In this document: piece after piece, positions 8,147 through 58,233 of the stretch
Layout: each line of letters begins with the position of its first letter
How positions within the stretch are numbered: the first letter of the stretch is position 1
Origin: Fluviicola sp.
Lineage (GTDB): Bacteria; Bacteroidota; Bacteroidia; Flavobacteriales_D; Crocinitomicaceae
Length of the DNA: 64,000 bases
Assembly (NCBI GenBank): GCA_029866325.1
Contig: JARWZO010000003.1
Location: forward strand, 1 to 64,000
Direction of reading: 5' to 3'
The notes under the pieces: model-generated
Seen by the model: the letters and a program-made list of their open reading frames with translations, nothing else
What the model was told of the DNA's origin: nothing
The model's database searches: none
Position numbers and translations under genes: made by a program

Positions 8147-8239
8147 GTATATTGGTCTATGTGTTGCGGCGCGGAATGCGTTCATCGCCTCCAACCCATA
8201 ATTTATTTTATTTTCCGCGTTCCAACGCCTGCAATTGCG

Positions 8240-8247
8240 TATTTTTG
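8240..8247 (+). promoter_or_regulatory. -7 promoter box TATTTTTG before ccsBA
   Basis: TATTTTTG fits TAnnTTTG and lies 26 bases before the ATG at 8274. It also argues against the in-frame TTG at 8235 as start codon, since that lies upstream of the predicted transcript start. Confidence 0.45.
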
Positions 8248-8273
8248 TGTTCAAATTTTTGAACCCATTTTCA

Positions 8274-42206: not shown

Positions 42207-42869
42207 ATGGAAAAGTGTAGAATTGCCTTGGTAGACGACAAGCCTTACAATGTGCAGGTTTTAGCCGAAAAGTTGGGCTCGAAACCCGAATATGAGATTG
42301 TAAGTACCACTTATGGCGGTTTGGCATTTCTGGAAGCACTCAAAAACATGACACACGCTCCGGATGTAGTGTTTATGGACATCGATATGCCCGATTTGAA
42401 CGGCATTGAAACCGTACAGCGCGCCAAGAACACCCATCCTGAAATTCATTTTTTGATGATCACTGTGTTCGACGATGAAGAACGCGTTTTTCAGGCCATT
42501 CAAGCCGGAGCGAGCGGTTATCTACTCAAAGACGAATCGATTTCAGGCCTTCACAAAGCGGTCGACGATGTGCTGAATTACGGTGGAGCACCCATGTCAC
42601 CCTCAATTGCCCGCAAAGCATTTCAATACATTCAACGCATGCAAGCGGCAGCAGCCACGGCTTTGGTGGTGAATCAATCGCCACTCAGCTCGCGCGAAAT
42701 GGATATCCTTGCCGGTTTAGCCGAAGGAAAAAGCTACATGATCATTGCCGAAAAACTGTTTATCAGCCCGCATACGGTGCGCAAGCACATGACCAATATC
42801 TACGAGAAATTGCACGTCAATTCAAAGGTAGAGGCGGTAAGAATGGCGTTGGAAAAAAAATGGGTGTAG
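42207..42869 (+). CDS. NarL/LuxR-family response regulator
   Basis: The 220-residue regulator has a receiver domain with Asp58 (DVVFMDIDMPD), acidic pocket LVDDK and the K-containing GYLLKDESI, then a GerE/LuxR helix-turn-helix (about residues 155-218: LSSREMDILAGLAEGKSYMIIAEKLFISPHTVRKHMTNIYEKL, spread over 43 residues). It is very likely the partner of the TPR kinase before it. The Kelch T9SS gene that follows is a possible target (inference). Confidence 0.93.
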   Translation: MEKCRIALVDDKPYNVQVLAEKLGSKPEYEIVSTTYGGLAFLEALKNMTHAPDVVFMDIDMPDLNGIETVQRAKNTHPEIHFLMITVFDDEERVFQAIQAGASGYLLKDESISGLHKAVDDVLNYGGAPMSPSIARKAFQYIQRMQAAAATALVVNQSPLSSREMDILAGLAEGKSYMIIAEKLFISPHTVRKHMTNIYEKLHVNSKVEAVRMALEKKWV

Positions 42870-42899
42870 TAGGCGTGGGACGCCTCCCGCGCAGACTAC
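42866..42899 (+). terminator. Hairpin at the end of the NarL-type regulator gene
   Basis: GCGTGGGA and TCCCGCGC pair around CGCC, flanked by GTAGT/ACTAC; the stop codon is in the outer stem. There is no clear T run, so termination would be weak. The GGGACGCCTCCC core resembles the second terminator at 8122-8146. Positions 42900-43114 hold no recognised feature. Confidence 0.5.
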
Positions 42900-43114
42900 A
42901 ACCAGTCTTTTAGATATAACATCAGAGCAGTGGATTTCACGCCGATTAACCACCAAATTAAACCATATCGTGATTTGTTGGGATGTATTTCAACCATTTT
43001 ACAACCTTTTAATGTGAGGTAGTTCACCAATAAACATTTATAGGCTTGGGATACTCCCATTCAATTACAGAGATCCTATCAAAACATTTCCCCTAATCAT
43101 TCGTTAGAAGCTGA

Positions 43115-44284
43115 ATGACAAAATACCTTTTGTTCCTATTGTTTGCTTGTTATCTGTTGACAATCCACGCGCAAAACTGGGAAACCAAAACTCCCGTTCC
43201 GGCGTGGGGCAGAGACGATGCATGCGCATTTTCGCTTTTAGGAAAAGGATATGTGGTAACGGGCAACCAAGGAGGTTTTACGCAAAGCAGCCGTCTTTGG
43301 TGTTATGATCCAATTGCGGATGAATGGACTGAGAAAACAGCCTTTCCGGGAATTCCACGACAATATGCTGGTTCGTTTGTGATGAACGAAGAAGTATACA
43401 TCATTATGGGCATTGCTGAAAACGGTACGCCGCTCAACGATTGTTGGAAATATATTCCCAAAACAGATACTTGGCTGCAATTGGCCGATTTCCCCGGGCA
43501 AGCGCGCTGGTCGATGTTTTCGTTTGCAACCTTGCTTTACGGTTATGTTGGAACAGGAGCCATGCCGGGAGTTTTGCTGAGCGATTGCTGGCGTTATAAT
43601 CCCGCTGGTGATACGTGGATTCAATTGAACAACTTTCCGGGGGGAGCAGTGCGCGAAACGGTGTCGTTTTCCATTGCAGAAAGCGGTTATGTTGGTCTTG
43701 GATTTCAATCCGTTAACGGAACAAATCTGACAGACGCGTTTTACCAATGGAATGATCTCACGAAGACCTGGACGGTTTTGCCCGATTTTATGGGGGGGCC
43801 GCGATCGTATGCCACAGCTGTTGCAAATAGCCATCAGGGATTTGTAGCAACAGGACAGGATGCCTTAGATAATTTTTACAACGATTGTTTTACATTCGAC
43901 CCCGAAACGGTCTCTTGGTCTATCGTTGATCCCTTACCCGAGCTTGGCATGCGTGGTATGAGCGCTTTTACAATCGATAAACACCCGTACTTTCTCACAG
44001 GATTACGTCAGGATTTTGTGCGTGTATCGAGCGTGTTTCGTTACAATGCTCCGGCGATTGTTCATTCAGATGTGTCGGTATATCCCAATCCTTCCTCCGG
44101 AGAAGCGATTGTGAAAGGCGAGGCGCTGAAACAGATTCAACTACTGACCCTCGATGGACGCTTGCTGCGCGAGGTGATTCCTACCGAGACTGCTACATGG
44201 TTGGGGGAACTTCCTGCCGGGATGTTGCTGCTAAGATTGCAAACCGGAGACGAGTGGATATGTAAACGGTTGTTGGTGTATTGA
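43115..44284 (+). CDS. Secreted Kelch-repeat protein with T9SS sorting signal
   Basis: The 389-residue protein has a signal peptide (MTKYLLFLLFACYLLTIHAQ), about six Kelch repeats (WETKTPVPAWGRDDACAFSLLGKGYVVTG and LNDCWKYIPKTDTWLQLADFPG, each about 50 residues) that should form a beta-propeller, and a C-terminal T9SS type A sorting domain (VYPNPSSGEAIVKG to WICKRLLVY). It is probably a surface or secreted binding protein; its ligand is unknown. It sits between the two inverted-repeat elements together with the NarL-type regulator. Confidence 0.88.
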   Translation: MTKYLLFLLFACYLLTIHAQNWETKTPVPAWGRDDACAFSLLGKGYVVTGNQGGFTQSSRLWCYDPIADEWTEKTAFPGIPRQYAGSFVMNEEVYIIMGIAENGTPLNDCWKYIPKTDTWLQLADFPGQARWSMFSFATLLYGYVGTGAMPGVLLSDCWRYNPAGDTWIQLNNFPGGAVRETVSFSIAESGYVGLGFQSVNGTNLTDAFYQWNDLTKTWTVLPDFMGGPRSYATAVANSHQGFVATGQDALDNFYNDCFTFDPETVSWSIVDPLPELGMRGMSAFTIDKHPYFLTGLRQDFVRVSSVFRYNAPAIVHSDVSVYPNPSSGEAIVKGEALKQIQLLTLDGRLLREVIPTETATWLGELPAGMLLLRLQTGDEWICKRLLVY

Positions 44285-44287
44285 CTT

Positions 44288-44305
44288 GTCTCGGCTAGCC
44301 GAGAC
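44288..44305. repeat. 18-bp perfect palindrome
   Basis: GTCTCGGCTAGCCGAGAC is a perfect palindrome 4 bases after the Kelch gene stop. It could form a strong hairpin but lacks a T run, so it may act as a weak terminator or as part of the repeat element family seen also at 42101-42120. Confidence 0.65.
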
Positions 44306-44351
44306 GTTACCCTGATAACGCTTGTTTCACCGAAAGCTATTCTTTTTCTTT

Positions 44352-44475
44352 CCCACAGATGCACAGATTTTTGCGCTCCTAACGGCAGCGCTAATAATCA
44401 TATAATTTCAATAAATAACAACAATATTAAAAATGTGCGAGGGCGTTAGCCGAGCTGAATCTGTGCATCTGTGGG
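44352..44475. repeat. 124-bp inverted-repeat element, copy 2
   Basis: The ends CCCACAGATGCACAGATT (left) and AATCTGTGCATCTGTGGG (right) are perfect inverted copies of 18 bases, the same ends as the element at 41952-42092. The interiors differ in sequence but keep a CGTTAG-containing stem. It lies between the convergent Kelch and PorP genes. No target duplication could be recognised. Confidence 0.8.
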
Positions 44476-44513
44476 AGAATATTTTATTTTGAAATAACTT
44501 GGCGGTTCTGTTC

Positions 44514-45569
44514 CTACTGATACCCCTTAAAATCACTTGGGCACTGATACATCCTACGTGTAGAGCGGTTTTTGAGGTATCTACCAAATAAGATTTTATC
44601 CCCGAAATCAATCACCAAACTCAACTCATGCGTGCCGTAAGAAGAGGTTTTTAAACGAGAAATCGTCATGTCAAAACCGTACATCACACGCCAGCTATTG
44701 GCCGTTTGCGAAGGCAGGTTCAACCCAACGGTAAAGATGAACGAATCGTAGCTTTTTACACTCAAGGCTGCATTGCGGTTGCGGAACCAAATACCGAAGG
44801 TAAACGGACGGTTCACAAGGTTCATTCCCACAGTAAAAGTCTGAAACTCGCGTTGCGTTTCGAAGATAAAACCGGGCGAGTAGATGAGGTCGTTGAACAA
44901 CAAGTTGGCATTGGCGTGAATCACCGTGCGGGTAGGCAAGAGCTGATCATCGCCCAAAAAAGCATCCCTAGGTTGCGATAAATGGTGCAAACTGGCGCCA
45001 ATGGTCATGGAATATTGTTTGAACGCCCCGCTCGATTTGCGCGTTCTTCCGTTAAATCGGGCTACCAAACCGGTATTAAAATCGGCATACGAAACGCGGT
45101 AATAATCCGGGCGATTAAATGCTGTTGGATTCACGTCACCCAATGTTTCGTCCAGTTGATCGGAGAACGTAAGTTTTGACCAATCAATGCGTTTGGAAAT
45201 AAATCCACCCCCAACTCCGGCCTGAATGATGAGGTTCTTAGTATCTACAGGACGGTAGGAATACGTTAAATAACCGCCTGTTGTGCGCAGCATGGCTTCT
45301 CCGGCCACGTCGCTATAGATATTGCCGCCAATACCCATTTTAAAGATGGATTGTGCTTCAAACGATCCCGAGAAGGTATTGAACCGTCCGGGAATTGGTC
45401 CCCACAGGTTGCGCGCATTGGCACGGAAGGTGAGTCCGTTGTTGATGGCCGTCATCGCCGGATTGTAGTAAATGGGATTGTTGTAAAACTGCGAGTAGTT
45501 GGGGTCTTGCGACCATCCAACCATGCTAAGCGCACAACAACCGATCAGTAAAAGAAGGAATTTTTTCAT
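44514..45569 (-). CDS. PorP/SprF-family outer membrane protein
   Basis: The 351-residue outer membrane beta-barrel protein starts with a signal peptide (MKKFLLLLIGCCALSMVGWSQ) and the family's DPNYSQFYNNPIYYNPAMTA, and ends with GTHELSLVIDFGDKI. PorP/SprF proteins act with T9SS and are often encoded next to the large type B adhesins they help to export or anchor, as SprF does for SprB in Flavobacterium johnsoniae. Here the gene follows such an adhesin after 3 bases, so the same role is very likely. Confidence 0.93.
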   Translation of the reverse strand: MKKFLLLLIGCCALSMVGWSQDPNYSQFYNNPIYYNPAMTAINNGLTFRANARNLWGPIPGRFNTFSGSFEAQSIFKMGIGGNIYSDVAGEAMLRTTGGYLTYSYRPVDTKNLIIQAGVGGGFISKRIDWSKLTFSDQLDETLGDVNPTAFNRPDYYRVSYADFNTGLVARFNGRTRKSSGAFKQYSMTIGASLHHLSQPRDAFLGDDQLLPTRTVIHANANLLFNDLIYSPGFIFETQREFQTFTVGMNLVNRPFTFGIWFRNRNAALSVKSYDSFIFTVGLNLPSQTANSWRVMYGFDMTISRLKTSSYGTHELSLVIDFGDKILFGRYLKNRSTRRMYQCPSDFKGYQ

Positions 45570-45572
45570 GGC

Positions 45573-48500
45573 TTAACGAATTACGGTTACGGTTCCTGAA
45601 CGTTTCTTTTTCCCATTCGGGTATTCCTTGCCTTCCCACACGCGTTCGTTGAGGAAAGTGGCGGTGGCTTTCCATACATAGGCATCTTGCTGTACGGGTT
45701 CGCCGTTGAAGGTTCCGTCCCAGTATTCGGTTGGTCGGCCGTCGGCATCCAGAGCGGTTGTTTGCCAGATCAAGTTGCCCCAATCGTCGTAAATCAGCAA
45801 TTCAAACGATTTTAAACCGACGCCTTTCGGGATAAAGTTCGATACCTCAAAGTCACCGCTTCCCGGACTCAAGGCATTCGGAATGAACAAGCCGTAGAAG
45901 AAGTCGACCCCAACGGTTTGATTGGTGGTATCCGCACATCCGAACTGGTTGGTGGCAATCAGAATCACATCAAAATCACCGAAGGTATTGTAACGTTCGA
46001 TTGGGTTTTCGAAGGTCGATGTATCGCCGTTGCCGAATTCCCAATAATAGGTCGTTGCTCCCACAGAAGTATTGGTAAATTCAACGGTTCCGCTCAATGG
46101 ATCGGGGTTTTGAATGTTCACAAAGTCAAAGCCGGCTGTCGGAGTAGGATGCACCACAATCGGTGTGTTGACCGTAAGCGTATCCGAACAACCACCGGCA
46201 CCGTAAGCAATAATGGTAATTGGGAAAACACCTGAGTTGTTAAATGCATAATTGACACTGGTTCCGTTGTAAGTGGTTCCGTTTCCGAAATCCCAGACTA
46301 CCGAATCGGCAAAAATACTGGTGGAATTAAACACAACAGGTTCGCCTACACAAACAGTATCTTCAGGCAACACAAAATTGGCAGTAGGAACTTGATACAC
46401 GTCTAGATTTTGAGACGTGGTATCGGCGCAGCCATAAATATTGGTAACGATCAATTGTATTGTATACGTTCCCGGAGTAGCATAACTGCTGGTTGGACTA
46501 TTAAGCGTAGAAGTATTGCCATTTCCAAGATCCCACGCATAATCAATCGCACCCGAGCTGGTGTTGGTAAACGTTGCTGTTACCGGCGGGTAACATGAAT
46601 TGGAGTTGGCGATTGTGAATGCTGCTACCGGAAGCGGGTAAACGGTGATGACTTGTTCCACAGAATCGGCGCAGCCATTGGCGTTTTCTACGTACAACTT
46701 GACGGTGTAATTGCCGGCAGTGGTATACGTATGCGCCGGGCTAAACTGAGCTGAAGTATTTCCGTCACCAAAATCCCACGACTGGAAACTGGTATTGGTA
46801 CTTGTATTGGTAAAGCTTACCTGCAGCGGCATACAACCTGCAACCGGGTTAGGTGTAAAGGTCGCAATCGGATTGGTGCTTACTACCACAGGCTGTGTAA
46901 CTGAAGCTGCACAACCGTTGGTTTGACTGATTCCTGTGAGTGTTACCTGATACGTACCACTGGCGGTATAAGTATGTGTTGGGTCGTAAAGCAATGAAGT
47001 GGTTCCGTCGCCGAAATCCCAGCTAACACTTGCCAAGCCCGAAGACAGGTTGGTAAACGTAAACAACTGATCGATACAAACCGAATCGGGATCGGAACTA
47101 AACGCCACATTGGGTGAAGGGAACACGGTAATGACTGCTGTTGTAGTGTCATACCCGCAACCGTCGTTGGCAAACAAGGAAACGGTATAGGTTCCCGCCT
47201 GTGTAAAGGTGTGTACAGGACTGTAAACTCCCGAAACGTTTCCATCGCCGAAATCCCAGTTCGAGAACGTAGCTCCGCTAGAGAATTGCGTAAAGTTGAC
47301 CGTATGCGGAACACAACCCGAAGGCGCATCTATATTGAAGAAAGCAGTGACTTGATTTGGTAAAACGGTAATGGAATGGTAGGTTGTATCGACACCGCAT
47401 TCGTTGGCAACCGCTAGCATAATGGTATAAGTAGTGTCGTTTACGCCCGTAGTGAACGTATGCTGAAATTGACCGATTCCGTTGGTTCCGGTAGTTCCAT
47501 CGCCAAAATCCCAGGAATAACTATCCGGCAAACCAATGCTGTTGTTAGTAATGTCTAAGATCAATGGCGAACAACCGATATTGGTGGCTGTTCCGAAAAT
47601 CGCTTGCGGACTCGGCATGGCAATGACTTGCTCCGAATGGGTGTCGGTTCCGCAGAAATTGGTAGCTGAAAGTACAATGGTATAGGTCGAATCGGCAATA
47701 ATTCCTGCAGCAAACGTAATGGCAGGCGGTGTAGCCAGATTGGATACTTGCCCGTTGCCAAAATCCCAGTTATAGGTAACCGACGGTCCGGTAGAATTGT
47801 TTACAAAAGCAACGGTCACAGGTCCGCAGGCCGAATCGGGTGCAAAAGCAAAATCGGCTACCGGTGGTTCGCGCACTTCTATTTGTTGCGTGATCGAATC
47901 CATGCAACCAAAAGCGCTTGTCACAATCAGTTCAATGTCGAAGAAACCGATACTGCTATAGGCATGCGAAGGGCTTTGGATCAATGATGTGTTTCCGTCG
48001 CCGAAATCCCAATCATAGGTCACACCCAATGTACTTGTATTGGTGAACAGTTCGTTTGTTCCCAAACAGGTAATAGCGTTGTAGGTGAAATTGACTATCG
48101 GAGTAGGATGAACGATGGCCAGCATGTTGTCGCTGTTCACACATCCCGTTACCGGTTCGGTAAATGTATACGTAATGGTATGCGAGCCTGTTCCTGCCGT
48201 TGCAGGATCAAATGTCCCGGCAGCTGCGTTAGTAATTCCTGTTCCTGACCATGTTCCGCCCACAGGTGTTCCACCGATATTCACGGCGACATCACTCGGA
48301 CAAAAATCCAGATCAGTTCCTGCGTTTACAATCGGTAGTGGATTTACGGTAAAGAACATCGTATCTCGGATGAGGCAATTGCCCGCTCCGTTAGAGATGA
48401 TCAATTCAAACGTTCCGGCAACCGTTGGGTCGAAGATTCCACCTGAAGTAACACCCGGTCCTGTCCATGTTCCGGAAGCAGGCGTTCCGTTCAATACAAC

Positions 48501-51500
48501 GTTGGCAGCATCGATACAGGCATCCAAGTCCGGTCCTGCGTTTGATGGTACAGGAGCTACCACAGTGATGGTTCGCGCGTCGGAGTTGATACAACCATTG
48601 GCGTTGGTAAATGTATAGGTGACAATGGTAGAACCAACTCCGGCAGGGGTGAAGATTCCACCAGCAGTGATATTTGCACCAGACCATGTTCCGCCCGCAG
48701 GTGAACCATTGACTTGAATAGGAAATGGTTGATCACAAAGCGTAGTGTCGTTTCCTGCGTTGACAACCGGTAAAGCAAAAATGGTGGCAGTAAGTTGATC
48801 GCTGTTTACACAACCCGTAACAGGATCGGTGTAGGTATACGTTAAATTATGAATGCCGGCACCAGCTGTGTTCGGACTGAATGTTCCTAAAGCGGCGTTG
48901 GTAATTCCTGTTCCCGACCAGGTTCCACCAACCGGAGTGCCACTCAGATTAAAGCCGGGATCATTGACACAATAGGAGAAATCAGCCCCCGCATTCACAA
49001 TCGGTAACGGGTTTACAGTAAAGATCATGGTATCACGTACAAGGCAGTTTCCTGCTCCGTTGGAAATGATTAGCTGAAAGGCTCCTGCAACCGTTGGGTC
49101 GAAAATACCGCCTGATGTCACTCCGGGACCAGTCCATGTTCCTGAAACAGGACTTCCGCTCAATACCACGTTCGCGGCATCAATACAGGCGTCCAAATCA
49201 GGTCCTGCGTTTGATGGAGTAGGAGCGATGACGTTTACCGTTCTGGTATCGGAGTTGGTACAACCGTTTGCATTGGTAAATGTGTAGGTTACAATGGAAG
49301 GGCCAACTCCGGCAGGGGTGAATATTCCGCCTGCAGTGATGTTTGCACCAGACCAAATTCCGCCACTTGGTGTTCCGTTGAGTTGAATCGGGAAGGGTTG
49401 ATTACAAACTGTGGTATCGATTCCGGCATTTACAACAGGAAGCGCAAAAATGGTAGCTGTCAGTTGGTCGTTGTTCACGCATCCCGTTACAGGATCGGTG
49501 TACGTATATGTTAGCGTATGGATTCCTGCTCCGGCTGTAGTTGGGTTGAAAGTTCCCAAAGCGGCATTGGTGATTCCGGTTCCAGACCAGGTTCCTCCAA
49601 CCGGAGTTCCACTCAGATTAAAGCCCGGATCGCTCGCGCAATTAGAGAAATCAAGACCTGCGTTTACAACTGGCAATGGATTTACGGTAAAGAACATCGT
49701 ATCACGCACAAGGCAGTTTCCTGCTCCGTTGGAAATGATCAATTCAAACGTTCCTGCTATTGTAGGGTCGAAAACACCTCCTGATGTCACTCCAGGACCT
49801 GTCCAAATTCCACCAACAGGACTTCCGTTCAACACTAGGTTAGCAGCATCGATACAAGCTTCCAGATCAGGTCCTGCGTTGGATGGAACTGGAGCTACAA
49901 CGTTTACGATGCGTGTATCAAAGTTGGTACAGCCGTTTGCATTCGTAAAGGTATAGGTCACGGTAGTTGATGCCACTCCGGCAGGGGTGAATTGTCCCCC
50001 AGCAGTAATATTTGCTCCTGTCCAGGTTCCACCCGCAGGTGTTCCGTTGAGTTGAATCGGTAAAGGTTGATCGCACAATGAGGTATCAATACCGGCATTT
50101 ACAACAGGAAGAGCAAACACGGTTGCGCTTAGCTGATCCGTTCCGATGCAACCTGTCACCGGATCGGTATAAGAATAGGTGATGGTATGAACGCCTGCGC
50201 CTGCTGTGGCGGGGTTGAATGTTCCAAGTGCAGCATTTGTGATACCTGTTCCCGACCAAGTTCCACCTACAGGTAGTCCATTCAAGTCAAAAGGAGCAGC
50301 GTCGATGCAACGCAATAAATCGCTTCCTGCATTGGCCACAGGCAATGGATTTACGGTGACAAGCATGGTGTCTGTTGTTAAACAACTTCCTGCTCCGAAT
50401 GTATAAACCATTGTAAAGGTTCCCACCAATGTTGGATCAAAGATTCCTCCCGAAGTGATTCCGCTTCCGGACCAGGTTCCACCTACCGGAGTACCTGTTA
50501 TCACCGTATTTGGCGCATCAATACACAAGGCAAGATCACTTCCTGCATTGGCAGGTGTTGGAGCTGTTACGGTAACGGTTCGTGTATCGGAGTTGGTGCA
50601 ACCGTTTGCATCCGTAACGGTGTACGTTAATACAAATAATCCCGGTCCGTTGGGTGTGAAAATTCCTGCAGCTGTAGTGTTTGCTCCGCTCCATGATCCA
50701 CCAACTGGTGTAGCAGTGAATTGTACAGGAACAGGTTGGTCGCATAAAGTTGTATCTATACCTGCATTCACAATAGGAAGCGGATTGACTATTGCTGTAA
50801 GCACATCGCTGGCGCTGCAGCCTGTAACAGGATCGGTATAAGAATACGTTAAAGTATGATTGCCTGCTAAAGCTGTTGCTGGAGTAAATTCCCCCGAAGG
50901 GTTGGTAATTCCGGTTCCTGTCCATGTTCCACCGACCGGAGTTCCAGAAAGCGTTACCATAGCAGCATCGAGACATAAGGTGAAATTAGCTCCTGCATCT
51001 ACTACTGGCAGTGGATTTACAATGGCAATGAGTGTATCTGTAGTAACGCAGGTACTCGAACCGATTGTATAAACCAAGGTAAACGATCCAACAGAAGCCG
51101 GAGTGAAAACTCCACCGGTAGTAACCGAAGTTCCCGACCATGTTCCTCCGGCGGGAGTTCCGTTTAAAACCGTTGCAGGAGCGTTTAAACAAGTCAAGAA
51201 ATCAGGTCCGGCATTGGCCAAAACCGGTGCAACAATCGTGATATCTACTACATCTGTATTGGTACATCCGTTGACATCGGTAAAGGAATAAGTGAGCGAA
51301 TTGATTCCAGCTCCGTTGGGAGTAAAAAGTCCTGATGGAGTGATGTTTGGTCCTGACCAAGTTCCACCGGCAGGTAAACCGTTCAATTGTATGGGAATTG
51401 GCTGATCACACACTGTTTGGTCTGTTCCTGCATTCACAACCGGAAGTGGATTTACCGTAACGGTGACGTTGGCATTACCAGAGCAACCAAGAGTTGTTCC

Positions 51501-53903
51501 TGTGACCGTATAAGTTGTTGTAGTTGTTGGTGATGCCGTTACCGGACTTCCGATAGTAGTGTTGAGGCTTGGGTCGGCATTCCAAACATAACTGGTGGCT
51601 CCGTTGGCGGTTAAAACAACCGAACTTCCGTTACAAATGGTAGCACTTGGAGGAGTTACAGTTACTACAGGTAAGGGATTCACTACTAAATTAACCGTGG
51701 TGATTGGCCCCGGACAGCCACCAATTGAACCGTTTACCTGATATGTTCCGGCATTTGCGGCTGTAACATTGGGTATGGAGAAATTTTGCGCAGATGAAGA
51801 AAATGCTCCCGGACCGGTCCAGCTATAAGTGATCCCCGGCACAAAATCAGAAGTAAAATTGGCTGTTTGTCCGGCACAAAGCGGAGAATTGACCGTCGGA
51901 TTGAGCGCAGGAGGAATGGGATTTACAACCAATGGAGTTGAAGCAGTTTGCGATCCGCAAAGATTGGTTGCCGTTAATGAAATTGTAAACGATCCGTTTG
52001 TTGGATACGTAATTGAACCCGGTACCAACGTTGATGCAGTTGTTGGGCTTCCACCCGGAAAACTCCAAGCATACGTATCAATTCCTTCGTAACAATTATT
52101 GATTACAGCTGTCGGATTAACAGCCGTTCCTGCACAAATAGGAGCAAGTGGGTTTACTGTGAGTTGTGGAGGTGCCTGAACTGTTACAGGTTGGTCGTAT
52201 AGAAACGAACCACAGGAATTGGTTAATGTGAGGCGCACTGTATACGTTCCCGGTTGCAAAAAGGTAATCTGCGGATTCAATGACGATGCATTGGTTGAAT
52301 TGGTAAACTGGAACTGACCGGTTGACGGTAAACAGGTACTTCCGTTAAAAATAACACTACATACACGGGTCACGTTGCAGGTATTGGTCAATGTAGATAG
52401 GTTGGTTGTTTGCGTCACCAAAGGCATACAGCCGGTATTGGGTGTGATGGTAAAATTGGGAACCGGAGGAATCTCCACACAGACGGTTCGTGTAATGGAA
52501 TTGGATCCGCAGCCGTTGGTCGTAGTGAGCGTCACTGTATATGTTCCTGGGGCTGCGTAGGTATGAGCAGGACTTGTAAGTGTTACTGTTGTAAGCGTTT
52601 GACCGTCACCGAAATCCCAGTTAAAAATAGTCGATGAATTACAGGAACTGTTGAAACCGGCGATACTTGTGTTGAGCATGGTTACCGGAGAACCGACACA
52701 TACATTGGGTTGCGAAACGGTAAAATTGGCTTGCGGACCCGCATAGACACGTATGGGAGAAATGGATGCTTCACTACTGTCGCAACGATTGATGGCTTTT
52801 ATGCGAAAAACAAAGGCATTTCCTGCTTGACCGCACGAAGAAGTGCTATACGTATGACATACAGTTGCCGGTGGTGGATGCGATAAGTTAGTCAACGGTG
52901 ATCCGTCACCGAAATCGACAACATAATAAGTAGTTGGGTGATTGGAAGCAAAGTTGTTGAGTGGGAAACAAAGTGTAATTGGTCCGCAGCCCGTTGTTCC
53001 CCCGGGATTGGCCGCACCGATTGCCGGATTGGTGATGTTGGCAATGTTGTAAGTTGTGGTGTCTACACAGCCATTTGTGCCGGTTACGATAAACAATAAA
53101 TCAAAAATATCGGCAGTGGTATAGGTATGTCCCAATCCTCCTCCGGGGAATGTTCCGCTTGAAAAATCGGGTGTTCCGTCTCCCCATTGAATGGTGTAAT
53201 TGGAATTGGAACCGCTTGCTGTAGTATTGAAAACCGTCATGGCGAAATTGGTGCCGTCGCAGTTTTTCATATCCGAAATCGGATCAAGTAAGCTTGGTCC
53301 TGGAGTCCGTAAAATGGTAATCGTTTGGTTGATACTAGCCGAACAGCCGTTGGCGTTTGTTACAACCAGTGTTACAGTAAAGTTTTGAGAACCCGTTCCA
53401 ATTGCGTCAAAGAGGTGAGTCGGGTTTTGTTGTGTTGATGTATTGGCTCCTCCAGAAGCCGGATCACCGAAATTCCATTGATAGGTCAATCCGACGCCGG
53501 TAGATGTATTGGTGAAAACAACCGGAACATTGGCACACCCGTTGTTGGGTGCAAAGGTAAATCCTGCAGTTGGAACACTCAAAGCGGTAACCGTAACATT
53601 ATCAGTAGATGTACAACCCAAACCGTCGGTTACTGTAAGTGTGTAGACCTGAGTAGCAATGGGCGATGCAACAGGATGCTCGCAATTGGTGCAGGAAAGT
53701 CCCGCTGCCGGACTCCAGCTGTAAGTAATTACCGGAGCACCCGATCCCGCGGTGGGAAGTGCACCGATTTGAACACCGGCTCCGATGCAAACAGTTGTGT
53801 CAGGACCTGCATCTGCTGAACATTGTGCATTGACTTGCACTACAGAAAAAGTGGGTATAATGAGAAGAAGTAGTAACTTTTTAGCTAGACGCGTCATTTT
53901 CAT
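45573..53903 (-). CDS. Giant PKD/Ig-repeat surface adhesin with T9SS type B sorting domain
   Basis: The ~2776-residue protein has a signal peptide (MKMTRLAKKLLLLLIIP.. to VQVNAQ), an N-terminal region with PKD/Ig-like domains (residues 30-830), a middle array of five near-identical super-repeats of 222-223 residues (about 820-1930; DNA 51440-48085), nine PKD domains (WDFGDGNTS-type, about 1940-2640) and a C-terminal gliding-motility-associated domain (IPNALSPGSGDFEVSNFI to GTVTVIR, about 100 residues). Such proteins are exported by T9SS and move or anchor on the surface, as SprB does. The start at 53903 is the second ATG; codon 1 of the frame is at 53915. Its gene is followed by porP/sprF. 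It may serve adhesion or gliding. Confidence 0.93.
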   Translation of the reverse strand: MKMTRLAKKLLLLLIIPTFSVVQVNAQCSADAGPDTTVCIGAGVQIGALPTAGSGAPVITYSWSPAAGLSCTNCEHPVASPIATQVYTLTVTDGLGCTSTDNVTVTALSVPTAGFTFAPNNGCANVPVVFTNTSTGVGLTYQWNFGDPASGGANTSTQQNPTHLFDAIGTGSQNFTVTLVVTNANGCSASINQTITILRTPGPSLLDPISDMKNCDGTNFAMTVFNTTASGSNSNYTIQWGDGTPDFSSGTFPGGGLGHTYTTADIFDLLFIVTGTNGCVDTTTYNIANITNPAIGAANPGGTTGCGPITLCFPLNNFASNHPTTYYVVDFGDGSPLTNLSHPPPATVCHTYSTSSCGQAGNAFVFRIKAINRCDSSEASISPIRVYAGPQANFTVSQPNVCVGSPVTMLNTSIAGFNSSCNSSTIFNWDFGDGQTLTTVTLTSPAHTYAAPGTYTVTLTTTNGCGSNSITRTVCVEIPPVPNFTITPNTGCMPLVTQTTNLSTLTNTCNVTRVCSVIFNGSTCLPSTGQFQFTNSTNASSLNPQITFLQPGTYTVRLTLTNSCGSFLYDQPVTVQAPPQLTVNPLAPICAGTAVNPTAVINNCYEGIDTYAWSFPGGSPTTASTLVPGSITYPTNGSFTISLTATNLCGSQTASTPLVVNPIPPALNPTVNSPLCAGQTANFTSDFVPGITYSWTGPGAFSSSAQNFSIPNVTAANAGTYQVNGSIGGCPGPITTVNLVVNPLPVVTVTPPSATICNGSSVVLTANGATSYVWNADPSLNTTIGSPVTASPTTTTTYTVTGTTLGCSGNANVTVTVNPLPVVNAGTDQTVCDQPIPIQLNGLPAGGTWSGPNITPSGLFTPNGAGINSLTYSFTDVNGCTNTDVVDITIVAPVLANAGPDFLTCLNAPATVLNGTPAGGTWSGTSVTTGGVFTPASVGSFTLVYTIGSSTCVTTDTLIAIVNPLPVVDAGANFTLCLDAAMVTLSGTPVGGTWTGTGITNPSGEFTPATALAGNHTLTYSYTDPVTGCSASDVLTAIVNPLPIVNAGIDTTLCDQPVPVQFTATPVGGSWSGANTTAAGIFTPNGPGLFVLTYTVTDANGCTNSDTRTVTVTAPTPANAGSDLALCIDAPNTVITGTPVGGTWSGSGITSGGIFDPTLVGTFTMVYTFGAGSCLTTDTMLVTVNPLPVANAGSDLLRCIDAAPFDLNGLPVGGTWSGTGITNAALGTFNPATAGAGVHTITYSYTDPVTGCIGTDQLSATVFALPVVNAGIDTSLCDQPLPIQLNGTPAGGTWTGANITAGGQFTPAGVASTTVTYTFTNANGCTNFDTRIVNVVAPVPSNAGPDLEACIDAANLVLNGSPVGGIWTGPGVTSGGVFDPTIAGTFELIISNGAGNCLVRDTMFFTVNPLPVVNAGLDFSNCASDPGFNLSGTPVGGTWSGTGITNAALGTFNPTTAGAGIHTLTYTYTDPVTGCVNNDQLTATIFALPVVNAGIDTTVCNQPFPIQLNGTPSGGIWSGANITAGGIFTPAGVGPSIVTYTFTNANGCTNSDTRTVNVIAPTPSNAGPDLDACIDAANVVLSGSPVSGTWTGPGVTSGGIFDPTVAGAFQLIISNGAGNCLVRDTMIFTVNPLPIVNAGADFSYCVNDPGFNLSGTPVGGTWSGTGITNAALGTFSPNTAGAGIHNLTYTYTDPVTGCVNSDQLTATIFALPVVNAGNDTTLCDQPFPIQVNGSPAGGTWSGANITAGGIFTPAGVGSTIVTYTFTNANGCINSDARTITVVAPVPSNAGPDLDACIDAANVVLNGTPASGTWTGPGVTSGGIFDPTVAGTFELIISNGAGNCLIRDTMFFTVNPLPIVNAGTDLDFCPSDVAVNIGGTPVGGTWSGTGITNAAAGTFDPATAGTGSHTITYTFTEPVTGCVNSDNMLAIVHPTPIVNFTYNAITCLGTNELFTNTSTLGVTYDWDFGDGNTSLIQSPSHAYSSIGFFDIELIVTSAFGCMDSITQQIEVREPPVADFAFAPDSACGPVTVAFVNNSTGPSVTYNWDFGNGQVSNLATPPAITFAAGIIADSTYTIVLSATNFCGTDTHSEQVIAMPSPQAIFGTATNIGCSPLILDITNNSIGLPDSYSWDFGDGTTGTNGIGQFQHTFTTGVNDTTYTIMLAVANECGVDTTYHSITVLPNQVTAFFNIDAPSGCVPHTVNFTQFSSGATFSNWDFGDGNVSGVYSPVHTFTQAGTYTVSLFANDGCGYDTTTAVITVFPSPNVAFSSDPDSVCIDQLFTFTNLSSGLASVSWDFGDGTTSLLYDPTHTYTASGTYQVTLTGISQTNGCAASVTQPVVVSTNPIATFTPNPVAGCMPLQVSFTNTSTNTSFQSWDFGDGNTSAQFSPAHTYTTAGNYTVKLYVENANGCADSVEQVITVYPLPVAAFTIANSNSCYPPVTATFTNTSSGAIDYAWDLGNGNTSTLNSPTSSYATPGTYTIQLIVTNIYGCADTTSQNLDVYQVPTANFVLPEDTVCVGEPVVFNSTSIFADSVVWDFGNGTTYNGTSVNYAFNNSGVFPITIIAYGAGGCSDTLTVNTPIVVHPTPTAGFDFVNIQNPDPLSGTVEFTNTSVGATTYYWEFGNGDTSTFENPIERYNTFGDFDVILIATNQFGCADTTNQTVGVDFFYGLFIPNALSPGSGDFEVSNFIPKGVGLKSFELLIYDDWGNLIWQTTALDADGRPTEYWDGTFNGEPVQQDAYVWKATATFLNERVWEGKEYPNGKKKRSGTVTVIR
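48085..51440 (-). repeat. Five-copy tandem super-repeat inside the adhesin gene
   Basis: The conserved cysteine codon of a C-(D/N)-Q-P motif lies at 51408, 50742, 50073, 49404 and 48735, that is 666, 669, 669 and 669 bases apart. Each unit codes for three related modules (CDQP module, CIDAAN module, GGTWSGTGITNAA module) ending in TYTYTDPVTGC. High identity between units points to recent duplication or gene conversion, and to possible copy-number variation. Confidence 0.85.
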
Positions 53904-54021
53904 GTAGTTGTGCACGCAAATATCGCTAAAATAATCAGGTCATCCAATACACCAAATGCAGTATAATGTCTTAATTTTCAGTTCTGTTATTTATCACATT
54001 AGACTGTTTGGTAATTCATTC

Positions 54022-54064
54022 AAAAACGAAAGCGGGTAAACCATGATTGATTTACCCGCTTTCG
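54022..54064 (-). terminator. Strong Rho-independent terminator
   Basis: CGAAAGCGGGTAAA (54027-54040) pairs perfectly with TTTACCCGCTTTCG (54051-54064), a 14-bp stem with a 10-base loop. On the minus strand it is followed by TTTTTG. It ends the lipoprotein gene. Confidence 0.93.
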
Positions 54065-54097
54065 TGCAACTTAGAGTCGCGTTATTGGTTGAATAAA

Positions 54098-54520
54098 TTA
54101 TTTTTTCTCAAATGTAAGATAGTCAGTACCTCCATTACCTCCTGAAATATCTTGTAACTCAAGTTTGTCTTTCGTTTGAGATTTAATTTCCCAATCATCT
54201 GTCAACTCATCCAAGTCGTTTAATACGGCAAAAGCAATGTTAAAATCAACGTCACTGTTGCTGTCGTCATTACTGTTGTCTTCACTTGTAGACCATGTTC
54301 CGCTGAAATTACCGGCTGAAACGGTTCCATTGGAATCGAACGTAAAGGTGTACGTGCTGAATTGTGCCGTTTCGTCAACACCATCATCCGAATATTTGGT
54401 GATTTCCCATGTGCCGTCTGACATGTATTTATCAGCCTTTTTTGTTGTTACTTTTTTGCAAGAGAACAATGACATTGAACCAACTGCTACTACTACTGCT
54501 AAAAAACCTACTCTTTTCAT
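54098..54520 (-). CDS. Small lipocalin-like lipoprotein, predicted ECF target
   Basis: The 140-residue protein has a lipoprotein signal (MKRVGFLAVVVAVGSMSLFSC, about 21 residues with LFSC as lipobox). The mature part has DGTWEITKYSDDGVDE, FTFDSNGTVSAGNFSGTWS and DYLTFEKK, like lipocalin-type Bacteroidota lipoproteins. Its promoter has the same boxes and spacing as that of the sigma operon, so it is probably controlled by the sigma factor encoded just upstream. It is closed by a strong terminator. Function is unknown. Confidence 0.8.
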   Translation of the reverse strand: MKRVGFLAVVVAVGSMSLFSCKKVTTKKADKYMSDGTWEITKYSDDGVDETAQFSTYTFTFDSNGTVSAGNFSGTWSTSEDNSNDDSNSDVDFNIAFAVLNDLDELTDDWEIKSQTKDKLELQDISGGNGGTDYLTFEKK

Positions 54521-54530
54521 AATTGCTTTC

Positions 54531-54564
54531 TCTTAGGACTGTTGTGGTTGACTTTTGGTTGGAA
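54531..54564 (-). promoter_or_regulatory. ECF-type promoter before the lipoprotein gene
   Basis: Read on the minus strand: TTCCAACCA, 13 bases, then ACAGTCCTAAGA, ending 10 bases before the ATG at 54520. The same boxes with the same spacing lie at 57116-57149 before the sigma operon. AACC followed 17 bases later by GTC fits the general ECF promoter form. It lies between the anti-sigma stop and the lipoprotein start. Confidence 0.7.
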
Positions 54565-54568
54565 AGAA

Positions 54569-55861
54569 TTAAAATCTTTTTCCAATTTTTAAGTAAACAC
54601 CTGAATAAAAGCTGTTTGTATAATCAAAATGTTTAAGCGGTCCATTGTTCAGGTTAACCAATCCCCATTCACTTCTGATTCCATAGTCGACAACGAATTT
54701 GTTGAATGATCTGTTGATTCCGAATGAAAGGGTGAGACCGGCATCGTATTTTTGATACTCGCTTTGGTCTTCTGCCGATTTGAGTGTAATTTCAGGTTGT
54801 TTCGTTGTAACTGTGGATGCAAAAAGGCCGCCGGCCAATCGCACATCGGAACGAAGTAACCTCGATGGTGCGAAATATGAAAATTCAAGATCTAGTTTTT
54901 TGCGGGTCAGTTGAATTTCCTCCTTTACTAACGCACCTCCTTCAAAGCAACTGTATTTCTGATCCAGTCTCGAAACAATGAACACATTTGCTCCTAATGC
55001 CATTCTTCGATTTATTCGCCAGGAGAAATAACCACCTAAGCCATACCCAACAGAGAAATCATTTGAAACCAGGGTTTTGTTGTTGATGCCACTTCTGACT
55101 TCATTGTTAAAGATCCATGAATTGCCAACGGTTGCAATTACTCCTGCGTCAAACAATTTCGGTTTTGCCGGTTTATTGTTTTCGGAAAGACGCGAATCGT
55201 GCGTTGAATTGGCAATGAGCCATGCTTCACGGAAAGGTAAATCGGTCATTGATCCGGTTTCTACCAATGAATCGTTTGGTAAAGGAGAATTAATTGTGTT
55301 GCGAGGATCTTTGCTGTGTTCAAGCGCATCATTGGTTTCGGCAATGTTATCAGGTTGTTCAGAAGCCGGTTCTGAAGTATTTGCAGTGAACGCTGACGAA
55401 TCTGACATTAATGGCAAAGGATTAACGATAATGTATTGAATGCAATTGTCCATATCAATGATTGTAGTGTCGTAATGCTCTTTTTTGGGTTGTGTATGAG
55501 CAATTTTCGGGACTGATGATCTGCCTGTCGGATTGTTTAAAAAGACAATGGAGCTGATCAGAAGCAGCACTCCTGCCGTGCCAAACCACCACCAAAATGC
55601 TTTTTTACGATCATCTTTGTCGAGTGAAACAGTAATTTTTGTCCAAACATCATCAATGATCAGTTGACGTTTTACAACATCCCATGTTTTTGAAGGAGCT
55701 CGTTTTATGGTTCCGTCAAATCCTTCGCGTATTTTTTCGGTGTCGGAAAAGGTCATGTCACCGGTGTCGATTTTATCCCACATTCCGGTTGGAGCTTTCC
55801 GCTGAACGGAATCAAAGCTCGATTTGACCCTGGATTCGATATGTCGGTTTTCCTCAGCCAT
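54569..55861 (-). CDS. Anti-sigma-like membrane protein with beta-barrel-like C-terminus
   Basis: The 430-residue protein has a cytoplasmic N-terminal part of about 85 residues (MAEENRHIESRVKSSFDSVQRKAPTGMWDKI, then a second similar block APSKTWDVVKRQLIIDDVWTKI), one membrane helix (FWWWFGTAGVLLLISSIVFL, about 90-110), a periplasmic linker rich in Ser/Asn (about 115-235) and a C-terminal domain of about 195 residues with alternating strands (GVIATVGNSWIF, GGYFSWRINRRMALGANVFIV, GVYLKIGKRF) typical of outer membrane beta-barrel proteins. It starts 8 bases inside the sigma gene, so it is the likely anti-sigma partner. Such a trans-envelope arrangement is predicted, not shown. Confidence 0.78.
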   Translation of the reverse strand: MAEENRHIESRVKSSFDSVQRKAPTGMWDKIDTGDMTFSDTEKIREGFDGTIKRAPSKTWDVVKRQLIIDDVWTKITVSLDKDDRKKAFWWWFGTAGVLLLISSIVFLNNPTGRSSVPKIAHTQPKKEHYDTTIIDMDNCIQYIIVNPLPLMSDSSAFTANTSEPASEQPDNIAETNDALEHSKDPRNTINSPLPNDSLVETGSMTDLPFREAWLIANSTHDSRLSENNKPAKPKLFDAGVIATVGNSWIFNNEVRSGINNKTLVSNDFSVGYGLGGYFSWRINRRMALGANVFIVSRLDQKYSCFEGGALVKEEIQLTRKKLDLEFSYFAPSRLLRSDVRLAGGLFASTVTTKQPEITLKSAEDQSEYQKYDAGLTLSFGINRSFNKFVVDYGIRSEWGLVNLNNGPLKHFDYTNSFYSGVYLKIGKRF

Positions 55862-56402
55862 TTGCTTGTTTGATCATGCCTCTTAGCAATTCTTTGGCTC
55901 TGCTAAGTTGCGATTTGGATGTTCCGATAGAAATGCTGAGCGCTTCGGCTATTTCGTGGTGTGCAAAACCTTCAATGGAATAGAGTTTCAGCACCATTTG
56001 TGCTTTTGACGGCAAGGTATTCACCAGCTTGATCACGTCAGCCGCTTCCAGTTCTTCAAAAATGTCGTTGTTTGATTGGTCTTTGGTAAAATTGTAATCT
56101 TCCACCACTTCAAAATAGCGTCTTTTTTGCTTGAAACTCTCAAGTGCCGTATTGATAATGATGCGTCTAATCCATCCACCCAGCGATTTGCTTGTGTCGT
56201 GTTGCTTCAGATTTCGGAATACTTTGATAAACCCCTCTTGCAGTATTTCGGCAGCTTCATCATCATCGTCAGAATAGTTACAGGCAACAGTGAACATAGC
56301 ATCGGCATATTTGCGATACAATTGTTCCTGCATAAAGCGATCGTTGTTTAACGCACCGCTAATCAGTTCCTCATCCGAATGACTTACTGCTTGATTCACC
56401 AT
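55854..56402 (-). CDS. ECF RNA polymerase sigma factor
   Basis: The 182-residue protein has sigma region 2 (FMQEQLYRKYADAMFTVACNYSDDDDEAAEILQEGFIKVFRNL, spread over residues 23-65, and the RIIINTALESFKQKRR segment) and region 4 (LPSKAQMVLKLYSIEGFAHHEIAEALSISIGTSKSQLSRAKELLR, about 130-175), with no region 1 or 3, as in ECF sigma factors. It starts with an ATG that overlaps the lipoprotein stop (TAATG) and its end overlaps the anti-sigma gene by 8 bases. The likely promoter target boxes are at 57116 and 54531. Confidence 0.95.
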   Translation of the reverse strand: MVNQAVSHSDEELISGALNNDRFMQEQLYRKYADAMFTVACNYSDDDDEAAEILQEGFIKVFRNLKQHDTSKSLGGWIRRIIINTALESFKQKRRYFEVVEDYNFTKDQSNNDIFEELEAADVIKLVNTLPSKAQMVLKLYSIEGFAHHEIAEALSISIGTSKSQLSRAKELLRGMIKQANG

Positions 56403-57088
56403 TAAAAATTGAAGATGATTTTGTCCGATTCTTCTAACCGGTCTATGATGTTATCGTAAATGGATTCATTGCTGGTGCTGCTGATCACAATAGCATCGAT
56501 TCCATTCACGGATGTAAGAATTGCATTTTCAAAAGAATTCATCGGCACCGATTCAAACCAATACGAAACATTGAAAAGAACCTTGGCTTTTGTAGCTACA
56601 TCTTTGTCTAATACGATGTTTTGCCCTGAGGAAGCTGTTCCTTTTAACTCGAACACTTCACTTTCGTTGATCTCCAAATATACGGGAATGTTGTCACCGG
56701 ATGTGTTTTGATAATTACCAACCACTTTTAACGAGACAATTCCATTATCATCGTCGGTTTCAAACTTCATTTCAATTTTTTCATAAATGCCTTGCGGAAT
56801 AGTAAACATCAACTCCTGAGAAGCATTGTTGGGATCGAAGGCCACCTGCAAGGGCGAAGTGTATTCTTTTTCAAAATTAACATCGTCGCCCTTTTTGCGT
56901 TTACCGTCAAACGAAAGTTTGTACAAACTGAAATAACCGCTCGAAAAGGTGAGCTTTCCATTGTAAATAGGACTCGCTTCCATGTCCATGTAAAATGCCA
57001 CAGATGTCGGCTTCTTGTATTTTTTGCAGGATTGCACCATTAAAACAGCGAATACTAAGCAAACCAATATGTGGATTTTTCGAACCAT
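56402..57088 (-). CDS. Lipoprotein, first gene of the ECF sigma operon
   Basis: The 228-residue protein has a lipoprotein signal with lipobox MVQSC near residue 21, then a beta-rich mature part (VAFYMDMEASPIYNGKLTFSSGYFSLYKLSFDGKRKKGDD, spread over 40 residues; IPQGIYEKIEMKFETDDD; VKVVGNYQNTSGDNIPVYLEINES). This looks like a DUF4382-type domain. It sits first in the operon, with a TAATG link to the sigma gene, so it might sense or transmit the signal from outside. The role is unproven. Confidence 0.78.
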   Translation of the reverse strand: MVRKIHILVCLVFAVLMVQSCKKYKKPTSVAFYMDMEASPIYNGKLTFSSGYFSLYKLSFDGKRKKGDDVNFEKEYTSPLQVAFDPNNASQELMFTIPQGIYEKIEMKFETDDDNGIVSLKVVGNYQNTSGDNIPVYLEINESEVFELKGTASSGQNIVLDKDVATKAKVLFNVSYWFESVPMNSFENAILTSVNGIDAIVISSTSNESIYDNIIDRLEESDKIIFNF

Positions 57089-57115
57089 AATTTACACCGT
57101 TTTGTCCTTTTTCAA

Positions 57116-57149
57116 TCTTAGGACTGTTTTCGTAGTACAATGGTTGGAA
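57116..57149 (-). promoter_or_regulatory. ECF-type promoter of the sigma operon (autoregulation)
   Basis: Read on the minus strand: TTCCAACCA, 13 bases, then ACAGTCCTAAGA, ending 27 bases before the lipoprotein ATG at 57088. The boxes and spacing are identical to those at 54531-54564, although the 13 bases between the boxes differ. It suggests that the sigma factor drives its own operon. Confidence 0.7.
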
Positions 57150-57225
57150 TTGAACCGTTTGTTTTAGTGATTTTTATTATGTTTATTCTTAATTAACTGA
57201 TAATTAAGTGTTTAATAAACTTTTT

Positions 57226-58068
57226 TTATTGGTTTTCATTCAATTTCACGGCTTCCAAGCCTATCATCAATGACTTACGTGGAGTTCCCCAACGGTAACC
57301 ACCCAATTTTCCTGAGGTTTGCAATACGCGGTGACACGGAATCAGGTAAGCGATAGGATTGTCACCAATAGCGGTTCCAACTGCTCTTGATGCTGTGGGT
57401 TGATGGATATTGGCAGCCAATTTTCCGTAAGAAGATAATTCACCACTTGGAATTTTCAAGAGAGCTTCCCATACTTTCAACTGAAAGGCAGTTCCTTTTA
57501 AATGCAAATGAACAGGCAGTTCTGCATTGATTTCCAATCCGTTGAGTAATTGAAGGGCTGCTTCATGCAAAGAGTGCTGACCTTCCTGAAATGTGGCTTT
57601 GGGGAAGCGGTGTTGGAGTTCGGTCAATGCTTCATTGTGGGTGTTGATGAACATCAAATGACAAAGTCCTTTTTGCGTAGAGGCAATCAGCACTGTTCCG
57701 AAAAGTGTTTCAGCGAATTGATAAGTAATGTTGAGTAATTCACCGCCGTTTTTGTATTCGCCGGGTGTCATTCCTTCCAGTTTCACAAATAAATCGTGTA
57801 AACGTCCGGTTCCGGATAAACCGGTTTCAAGAGCAGTATCGAATAAAGTGGCTTGTTGTTCGCCCAATAAACGTTTGGCGTATTCGATGCTGGTGTATTG
57901 AAGAAATTTCTTCGGACTCACACCTGCCCAGTTGCTAAACAAACGTTGGAAATGAAACGGACTCAGGTTTACATGTGCTGCTACTTCATCTAAATCGGGC
58001 TGTTCCTTAAAATGTTCCTGAATGTAGGCGATTGCATGTGCTATGCGTTCAAAATCATCTTGTTTCAT
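57226..58068 (-). CDS. AraC-type HTH/methylated-DNA cysteine methyltransferase fusion
   Basis: The 280-residue protein joins an N-terminal AraC helix-turn-helix (about residues 5-105: EVAAHVNLSPFHFQRLFSNWAGVSPKKFLQYTSIEYAKRLL, spread over 41 residues) to an O6-alkylguanine methyltransferase domain whose active cysteine is in PCHRVLQTSGKLGGYRWG (near residue 245). It repairs O6-methylguanine and may act as a regulator of its own gene. It lacks the N-terminal zinc domain of classical Ada, so it cannot repair phosphotriesters in the Ada way. Confidence 0.93.
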   Translation of the reverse strand: MKQDDFERIAHAIAYIQEHFKEQPDLDEVAAHVNLSPFHFQRLFSNWAGVSPKKFLQYTSIEYAKRLLGEQQATLFDTALETGLSGTGRLHDLFVKLEGMTPGEYKNGGELLNITYQFAETLFGTVLIASTQKGLCHLMFINTHNEALTELQHRFPKATFQEGQHSLHEAALQLLNGLEINAELPVHLHLKGTAFQLKVWEALLKIPSGELSSYGKLAANIHQPTASRAVGTAIGDNPIAYLIPCHRVLQTSGKLGGYRWGTPRKSLMIGLEAVKLNENQ

Positions 58069-58233
58069 GAATCAAAATTACGGATTGTGAAAGGCGTTGC
58101 AACCCGAAACTTGCTTTTTTGATGAAGTAACTTCAAGTGTGTTGGTTTGAACGTAGTTTAAACTATTAAACATGCTGTTTATAAGATTGCTCTCTGACTA
58201 ATGTTAAAGGGAAAATCATTGTGTAAAGGGAAA

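Follow-up and report, generated by a model that had tools for sequence, protein, structure and literature searches.

Anti-sigma factors of the Dma and Reo types have been studied in gut Bacteroides and Phocaeicola, and the available portions of those reports give no promoter for the partner sigma factors, except that a motif is stated to be known for EcfO (PMC7366714). As described in the accessible part of the report, the Dma proteins of Bacteroides thetaiotaomicron (Dma1-3), partners of the extracytoplasmic function (ECF) sigma factors Das of group ECF21, have a sigma-binding domain at the N terminus and a barrel at the C terminus, joined by one transmembrane helix and a long linker, and loss of Dma2 raises the expression of its own operon and adjacent genes (PMC13088901). 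Reo of Bacteroides and Phocaeicola is presented, in the excerpts at hand, as an anti-sigma factor reaching from the cytoplasm to the surface (PMC9308784, PMC13114119), and EcfO-Reo as controlling nigD surface lipoproteins (PMC13114119). Here we analyze a 64,000-nucleotide stretch of DNA from a Fluviicola sp. contig (hereafter the window) that carries a lipoprotein-sigma-anti-sigma operon followed by a further lipoprotein gene, with the same pair of sequence boxes before each. We consider it likely that each pair of boxes forms the -35 and -10 elements of a promoter recognized by the locally encoded ECF sigma factor, that the anti-sigma factor senses the outer membrane, and that the output consists of the operon itself and one lipoprotein. 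This reading draws on what we observe in this and related genomes: sequence conservation, gene order, an empty site and the predicted build of the proteins. The locus comprises the following features.

57116..57149, minus strand: predicted promoter P1, upstream of the operon, with the form TTCCAACCA-N13-ACAGTCCTAAGA and a -35 box conserved at related operons
56402..57088, minus strand: LIPU, first gene of the operon, a 228-residue lipoprotein with Cys21, an all-beta model and no Pfam family
55854..56402, minus strand: ECF sigma factor, 182 residues, with Sigma70_r2 and r4_2
54569..55861, minus strand: anti-sigma factor, 430 residues, Dma/Reo-like
54531..54564, minus strand: predicted promoter P2, before LIPD, with the same boxes as P1
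54098..54520, minus strand: LIPD, putative output gene, a 140-residue lipoprotein whose lipocalin-like domain matches GH43_C at 24.3 bits (cut-off 23.4)
54026..54065, minus strand: strong intrinsic terminator 3' of LIPD, with an 18-bp stem and a T run
53969..57235, minus strand: whole cassette, the stretch missing from the syntenic site of genome G070; it takes in the last 10 bases of gene 57226-58068

We regard the cassette as a Dma/Reo-type system that stands out by its small size, a private -10 element, its cassette nature and an unusually clear promoter logic. It resembles Dma/Das in the apparent build of the anti-sigma factor and in the adjoining ECF sigma gene, and the main targets of Dma2 are, in the available part of that report, likewise its own operon and adjacent genes (PMC13088901); unlike Dma/Das, its operon is headed by LIPU and its putative output is a lipocalin-like lipoprotein. 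With EcfO-Reo it would have in common that the anti-sigma factor reaches from the cytoplasm to the cell surface; the EcfO-Reo regulon, as far as the accessible text describes it, is one of surface lipoproteins (PMC9308784, PMC13114119). The EcfO targets, however, include three nigD genes that, judging by the locus tags in the accessible text, lie at several genomic places, whereas the exact sites of the cassette are two and local. NigD as a target, as in an EcfO/Das1-type regulon, was rejected here, as the NigD_N family PF12667 was found in 0/118 sampled genomes of the phylum including the host's own; among 14 control genomes one was positive, that of Bacteroides ihuae. In a flavobacterium, the SM6 promoters of F. 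psychrophilum are, in the part of the report available, likewise of ECF type, with a CGT -10, and an ECF sigma/anti-sigma pair follows one of these promoters (PMC9723704). In contrast to the cassette, their targets include type IX secretion genes, and that part of the report describes no box of the form TTCCAACC, the -35 element considered below (PMC9723704).

Paired boxes before the operon and LIPD

A pattern search of the window with TTCCAACCA-N13-ACAGTCCTAAGA returned P1 and P2 without mismatch and no third copy even when three mismatches were allowed, compared with a mean of 0.01 box pairs in 100 dinucleotide-preserving shuffles. The statements of the first-pass annotation that both sites have identical boxes, a gap of exactly 13 bases and unrelated spacers, and that the window holds no further copy, are confirmed by this search. 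All 21 box positions are identical, the spacers (AAAGTCAACCACA and TTGTACTACGAAA) are unalike, and AACC and GTC stand 17 bases apart at both sites. P1 ends 27 nt ahead of the LIPU ATG at 57088. P2 begins 4 nt past the anti-sigma stop codon and ends 10 nt ahead of the LIPD ATG (54520), so the predicted leader of the LIPD mRNA is very short, as it is at several related loci.

Because the spacers are unrelated, we set aside the idea that P2 is a recent duplicate of P1. It could still be redundant, if most LIPD transcripts started at P1 and ran through and the boxes of P2 were left over from a duplication. The start of the box so close behind the anti-sigma stop speaks for this, as does the terminator search, which found no terminator between the anti-sigma gene and LIPD. 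We nevertheless think redundancy very improbable, given unrelated spacers between boxes identical at every position and given second promoters with variable spacers behind the anti-sigma stop in 11/11 loci of a paralogous operon of the genus, and also before lipoproteins elsewhere. This paralogue, LIPU85-SIG85-ANTI85, lies on contig C24 in the window's own genome and shares the cassette's -35 box.

Extended to the whole genome (4.68 Mb) with the pattern CCAACC-N17-GTCCTAA, as the first-pass annotation had proposed, the search found P1 and P2 as the only exact sites. At up to two mismatches there were 57 sites (2 exact, 3 with one mismatch, all of these intragenic, and 52 with two), against 172 for the reversed control pattern. 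Four of the 30 sites retrieved are intergenic by a simple open reading frame (ORF) call, namely P1, P2, L016 and L027; L016 has no ORF nearby and L027 lies 119 nt upstream of one, so that neither stands immediately before a gene start. A version of the genome pattern with a 16-base gap was discarded as being in the wrong register for the window sites; it gave 0 matches in G000 and still retrieved paralogous operons.

Recurrence of the -35 box in related loci

The first-pass annotation had also proposed comparing related loci for conservation of both boxes. The exact -10 box was met in this genome only. The -35 box recurs: TTCCAACC lies ahead of the operon and of neighboring genes, lipoprotein genes among them, in related LIPU-sigma-anti-sigma loci of other genera and in one locus of another family (an expectation of 7.5 occurrences in the related loci presumes equal base use). 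Counted by eye, TT[CAG]CAACC is found upstream of 25 of the 37 LIPU genes, 11 of these 25 being copies of the single genus paralogue. A rule-based count places a perfect TTCCAACC before 18/37 LIPU genes and before 15/277 other genes of the same loci, control genes that may contain true regulon members; lipoproteins or DUF2490 proteins are the products of 11 of these 15. The count by eye exceeds the rule-based one because start codons chosen by rule overlook some promoters (L067, L079, L138, L217).

The systems were also grouped by the recognition helix of their sigma factor. Among systems with the helix QL[NS][RY]A, 25/26 have TT[CAG]CAACC before LIPU by eye, and in the 26th, L071, a LIPD-like gene lies in front of LIPU and has the box upstream of it (L071 3383-4707), so that output gene and operon may share one promoter there. 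Systems with QL[FAS]KAK have the box before LIPU in 0/9 cases and GGCAACC in 5/9. It is possible that helix and -35 box have changed together in these GGCAACC systems, which are L078, L209, L211, L212 and L214, all with QL[FA]KAK. No adjacent sigma gene was found for the LIPU genes of L207 and L213.

A class-wide set was drawn from the loci of the best related sigma genes in other genomes of the class, of which 119 were searched. In this set CAACC occurs within 150 nt upstream in 19/29 loci (3.5 in resampled sequences) and a -10 element follows in register in 13/29 (0.6 in resampled sequences); for other genes of the same loci, which may again include true regulon members, the counts are 8/44 and 3/44. 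The bases ahead of CAACC vary across the class (ATG, GTG, ACC), with TTC recurring in L232 and L249, and the core CAACC seems to be widely shared.

Agreement of -10 types within loci

The sites fall into three -10 types, CG[AG]CT, [CT]ATC and GTCCTAA, the last in the window only. A typed -10 is present near the expected place for 53/59 intergenic boxes and for 8/36 intragenic ones, and three of those eight are promoters inside over-extended ORFs. Two or more sites could be classified in 15 loci, and in every one of these the type is uniform, including between operon and output promoters. When the labels of 35 sites were permuted, 0/200,000 permutations reached 15/15 agreement (mean 5.4), a figure that is not a strict probability, as the types were set with the sites already in view, the permutation ignores relatedness and the -10 spacing varies by a few bases. 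The permuted set contained one of the 11 paralogue copies and two sites within over-extended ORFs (L068 6969 and L074 6870), and omitted the single-site locus L067 and unclassified sites, namely L066 3557, L070 4287 and boxes away from operons.

Modules that reside in the same genome differ from one another. Six genomes gave two LIPU matches; the second match of G010 is a 54-residue fragment and was left out, and the two modules have differing promoter types in 5/5 of the others (G000, G004, G026, G038, G086). In the window's own genome the -10 is GTCCTAA in the cassette and TATCAAT or CATCAAA in the paralogue. This bears on whether the boxes might instead be promoters of one or more other ECF sigma factors, such as the paralogue on contig C24, so that the cassette would not be self-contained. 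The -35 box common to cassette and paralogue is compatible with such cross-recognition, as are the 25 genome matches to the sigma factor (itself counted) and the rise of the B. thetaiotaomicron dma3 locus in dma1 and dma2 mutants, read as possible crosstalk in the available part of that report (PMC13088901). The differing -10 elements of co-resident modules and the agreement of -10 types in 15/15 loci argue the other way, as does the observation, described next, that the cassette and both its promoters come and go as one unit, and we rate control by another sigma factor as improbable.

Presence and absence of the cassette

Matches to the anti-sigma protein (E up to 0.001) occur in 17/200 genomes of the family, the window's own included, and in 7/24 genera, and the nearest related sigma factors in other genera are 60-62% identical. 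A LIPU profile matches 31/299 genomes of the order and 13/65 genera. In the close relative G070, positions 1-11443 and 11666-12556 of the locus align to window positions 42527-53968 and 57236-58126 at 80-82% identity, and between them G070 has 222 bp without detectable similarity where the window carries 3.27 kb. The 3.27-kb stretch holds both promoters, the four genes, the terminator and the final 10 bases of the neighboring gene. In this two-genome comparison, then, one genome has the complete regulon and the other has none of it. At the cassette ends we noticed neither repeats nor mobile genes, for which no dedicated search was made.

Elsewhere in the window, positions 45573-53915 encode a 2780-residue protein with PKD repeats and, at its C terminus, a match of the CHU_C type; its internal repeats align mutually in the relative.

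Predicted build of the cassette proteins

LIPU shares 1 nt with the sigma gene and the sigma gene 8 nt with the anti-sigma gene, and the lipoprotein-sigma-anti-sigma order is seen again in related loci. The sigma factor has the region composition of an ECF protein, matching Sigma70_r2 (1.7e-12, residues 28-95) and r4_2 (8.1e-12, residues 123-173) with region 3 unmatched; its TIGR02985 score is 85.7, against a cut-off of 126.4. The anti-sigma factor appears to have the dual-membrane-spanning build of Dma and Reo, with one transmembrane helix, a linker and an eight-stranded OmpA/OmpW-like barrel. The two membrane elements of the model are as follows.

55538..55609, minus strand: single transmembrane helix, residues 85-108, from a model helix and one hydrophobic stretch at residues 90-108
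54575..55156, minus strand: C-terminal eight-stranded outer-membrane-type beta barrel, residues 236-429, from the model, Foldseek and Pfam matches of homologues

The model begins with helices at the N terminus, followed by helix 85-108, which spans the hydrophobic stretch. Residues 110-233 form a linker that is mostly unstructured, with two short strands, at a predicted local distance difference test (pLDDT) value near 30 from a three-sequence alignment. In a Foldseek search the barrel part resembled OmpA, OprG and OmpW, with E values down to 8.7e-7 and TM values by target length of up to 0.63 among the matches listed. The Pfam family OMP_b-brl_2 was detected in 8/15 aligned anti-sigma sequences (best 1.8e-8), and a profile search of PDB with the anti-sigma alignment gave no matches. 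The N-terminal part contains two [GS]F-x6-AP-x3-W motifs in tandem, about 30 residues apart, which might be repeated sigma-binding sites; two homologues (L070 and L079) have four copies, and several others have one or none.

LIPU retains Cys21 in all 15 aligned sequences. A Pfam scan of its own sequence found no family, its model (pLDDT 64) had no PDB or viral fold match at E up to 0.001, and a sequence search of PDB gave two weak matches (E 0.085 and 0.14). We propose no function for LIPU because these searches gave nothing firm.

A lipoprotein of this kind at the head of the operon raises the question of whether the signal is a particular ligand from outside the cell, detected for instance by LIPU or by the barrel and more in the manner of FecR/TonB-type surface signaling, rather than outer-membrane damage. 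Lipocalins often bind small ligands, and lipocalin-like families were matched in 4/8 output lipoproteins scanned, one of them above its cut-off. On the other hand, the anti-sigma factor has no match to FecR-type families and no TonB-dependent receptor is encoded by the neighboring genes that were scanned, a search that did not extend to the remainder of the window. The Phocaeicola relative, moreover, is induced by an envelope-stressing toxin according to the accessible portion of its report (PMC9308784). We consider ligand sensing unlikely.

Proposed mechanism and points against it

In the mechanism that we favor, the anti-sigma factor would hold the sigma factor at the inner membrane, its periplasmic linker connecting to the outer-membrane barrel, and the sigma factor would be freed when the barrel or the outer membrane itself is disturbed. 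Transcription from P1 would then yield LIPU, sigma factor and anti-sigma factor, a loop that could both amplify and reset the response, while P2 would add LIPD as a single further lipoprotein with an effector role. The -35 element TTCCAACC would be common to related sigma factors, and the private -10 element GTCCTAA would insulate the cassette from its co-resident paralogue. The suggestion of the first-pass annotation, that of a sigma factor controlling both the operon in which it is encoded and the 140-residue lipoprotein, gains support from the recurrence of the -35 box, the agreement of -10 types within loci, the genome-unique pair of sites and the presence or absence of the cassette as one unit; from these we infer promoter function.

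Several results weigh against this interpretation. The exact form GTCCTAA was met in this genome alone, so its assignment as a -10 element rests on its register and on the pair itself, and the -10 types in general were defined after the sites had been viewed, with labels assigned by hand. Our inspection of genome sites covered 30 of the 57 matches, the remaining 27 all being two-mismatch sites. The lack of a detected terminator ahead of LIPD, given above, leaves room for readthrough. Two of the nine QL[FAS]KAK systems, L204 and L205, carry TTCCAACC 73 nt upstream of the sigma gene, which speaks against a strict link between helix and box. The AlphaFold model of the anti-sigma factor comes from a three-sequence alignment and is of low confidence (mean pLDDT 46), and the protein's own OMP_b-brl_2 match is below threshold (E 0.08). 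Finally, the anti-sigma factor matched 0/13 other genomes of the genus at E up to 0.001, a setting that misses the genus's distant paralogue too. As the cassette was not found in those genomes, box conservation could be assessed between genera only.

More broadly, Dma-type sigma modules of Bacteroidota might be portable, mutually insulated plug-in regulons, in which a nearly unchanging recognition helix of the sigma factor reads a common -35 element, each module has its own -10 element, and an exchangeable output lies right behind the anti-sigma stop (a lipoprotein here, a structured small RNA in the paralogue present in most genomes of the genus and a second, different small RNA in another genus of the family), a generalization to which we give slightly less than even credence. 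The promoters, the output gene and the empty site delimit a complete module of ~3.3 kb in a freshwater bacterium, which makes sigma specificity, insulation from the paralogue and the outer-membrane signal directly testable.

A paralogous module and candidate small RNAs

Three features had escaped the first-pass annotation: the predicted outer-membrane barrel in the anti-sigma factor, the locus being a cassette, and the paralogous module with its putative small RNA. In all 11 loci of this module a second TTCCAACC promoter follows the anti-sigma gene, its box 0-1 nt past the stop, and behind it lies a conserved, terminator-ended stretch with no ORF of 60 residues. Its copy in the window's own genome is the following.

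L085 5714-5945, plus strand, contig C24: small-RNA candidate with a TTCCAACC-N16-ATC promoter and a terminator

A covariance model of this small RNA matched 11/14 genomes of the genus (L085, L147-L155, L157) and was unmatched in G046, G118 and G124 and in all 226 other genomes of the family. Across the 11 promoters the -35 box and the next three bases are invariant, and mean identity is 0.88 in the -10 region and 0.45 at spacer positions 12-22. Changes on both sides occur at 9/30 base pairs, which 0/500 shuffles equaled, in counts that derive from an alignment fitted to the structure; further pair types (18 vs 19.5 shuffled) were the sole one of five measures not above shuffles. Short ORFs of about 15-30 codons are present in 5/6 of the first small-RNA sequences, and the stretch may encode a tiny peptide. 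An Rfam scan of six small-RNA loci gave nothing at gathering thresholds. Against the window and 15 other loci the model gave nothing above chance (best E 0.72), so the small RNA is not part of the cassette.

In the host genome the paralogue pattern TTMCAACC-N15-YATC has 13 matches and its reversed control one. Seven of the 13 are intergenic, two of these at the paralogue's own operon and small RNA, and the paralogue regulon may therefore exceed that of the cassette. E. coli RpoE (sigma-E) is an autoregulating envelope-stress ECF sigma factor with the small RNAs MicA and RybB. The paralogous module resembles it in adding a putative sigma-dependent small RNA, and the systems described here differ from it in an unrelated anti-sigma design and in forming small private modules, in contrast to the one large regulon of RpoE. 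If transcribed, the paralogue's small RNA would provide, in a flavobacterium, a candidate for a small RNA that depends on an envelope-stress sigma factor. We know of no report of the cassette promoter or of these small RNAs, the motif letters themselves not having been searched in the literature.

Another genus of the family has, at the matching place in three loci, a different putative small RNA behind TTCCAACC (L070 4041, L076 1667 and L079 4280, all on the plus strand). By eye, ACCAGTTAACCAA is conserved within this second candidate, whose end looks like a terminator and which is convergent to the anti-sigma gene. On contig C1 of the window's own genome, near 20449 (L250), a TTCCAACC-N15-CATC box stands 3 nt past a gene stop with no ORF called behind it, and a terminator-like hairpin follows about 110 nt farther along; this is possibly another sigma-dependent small RNA.

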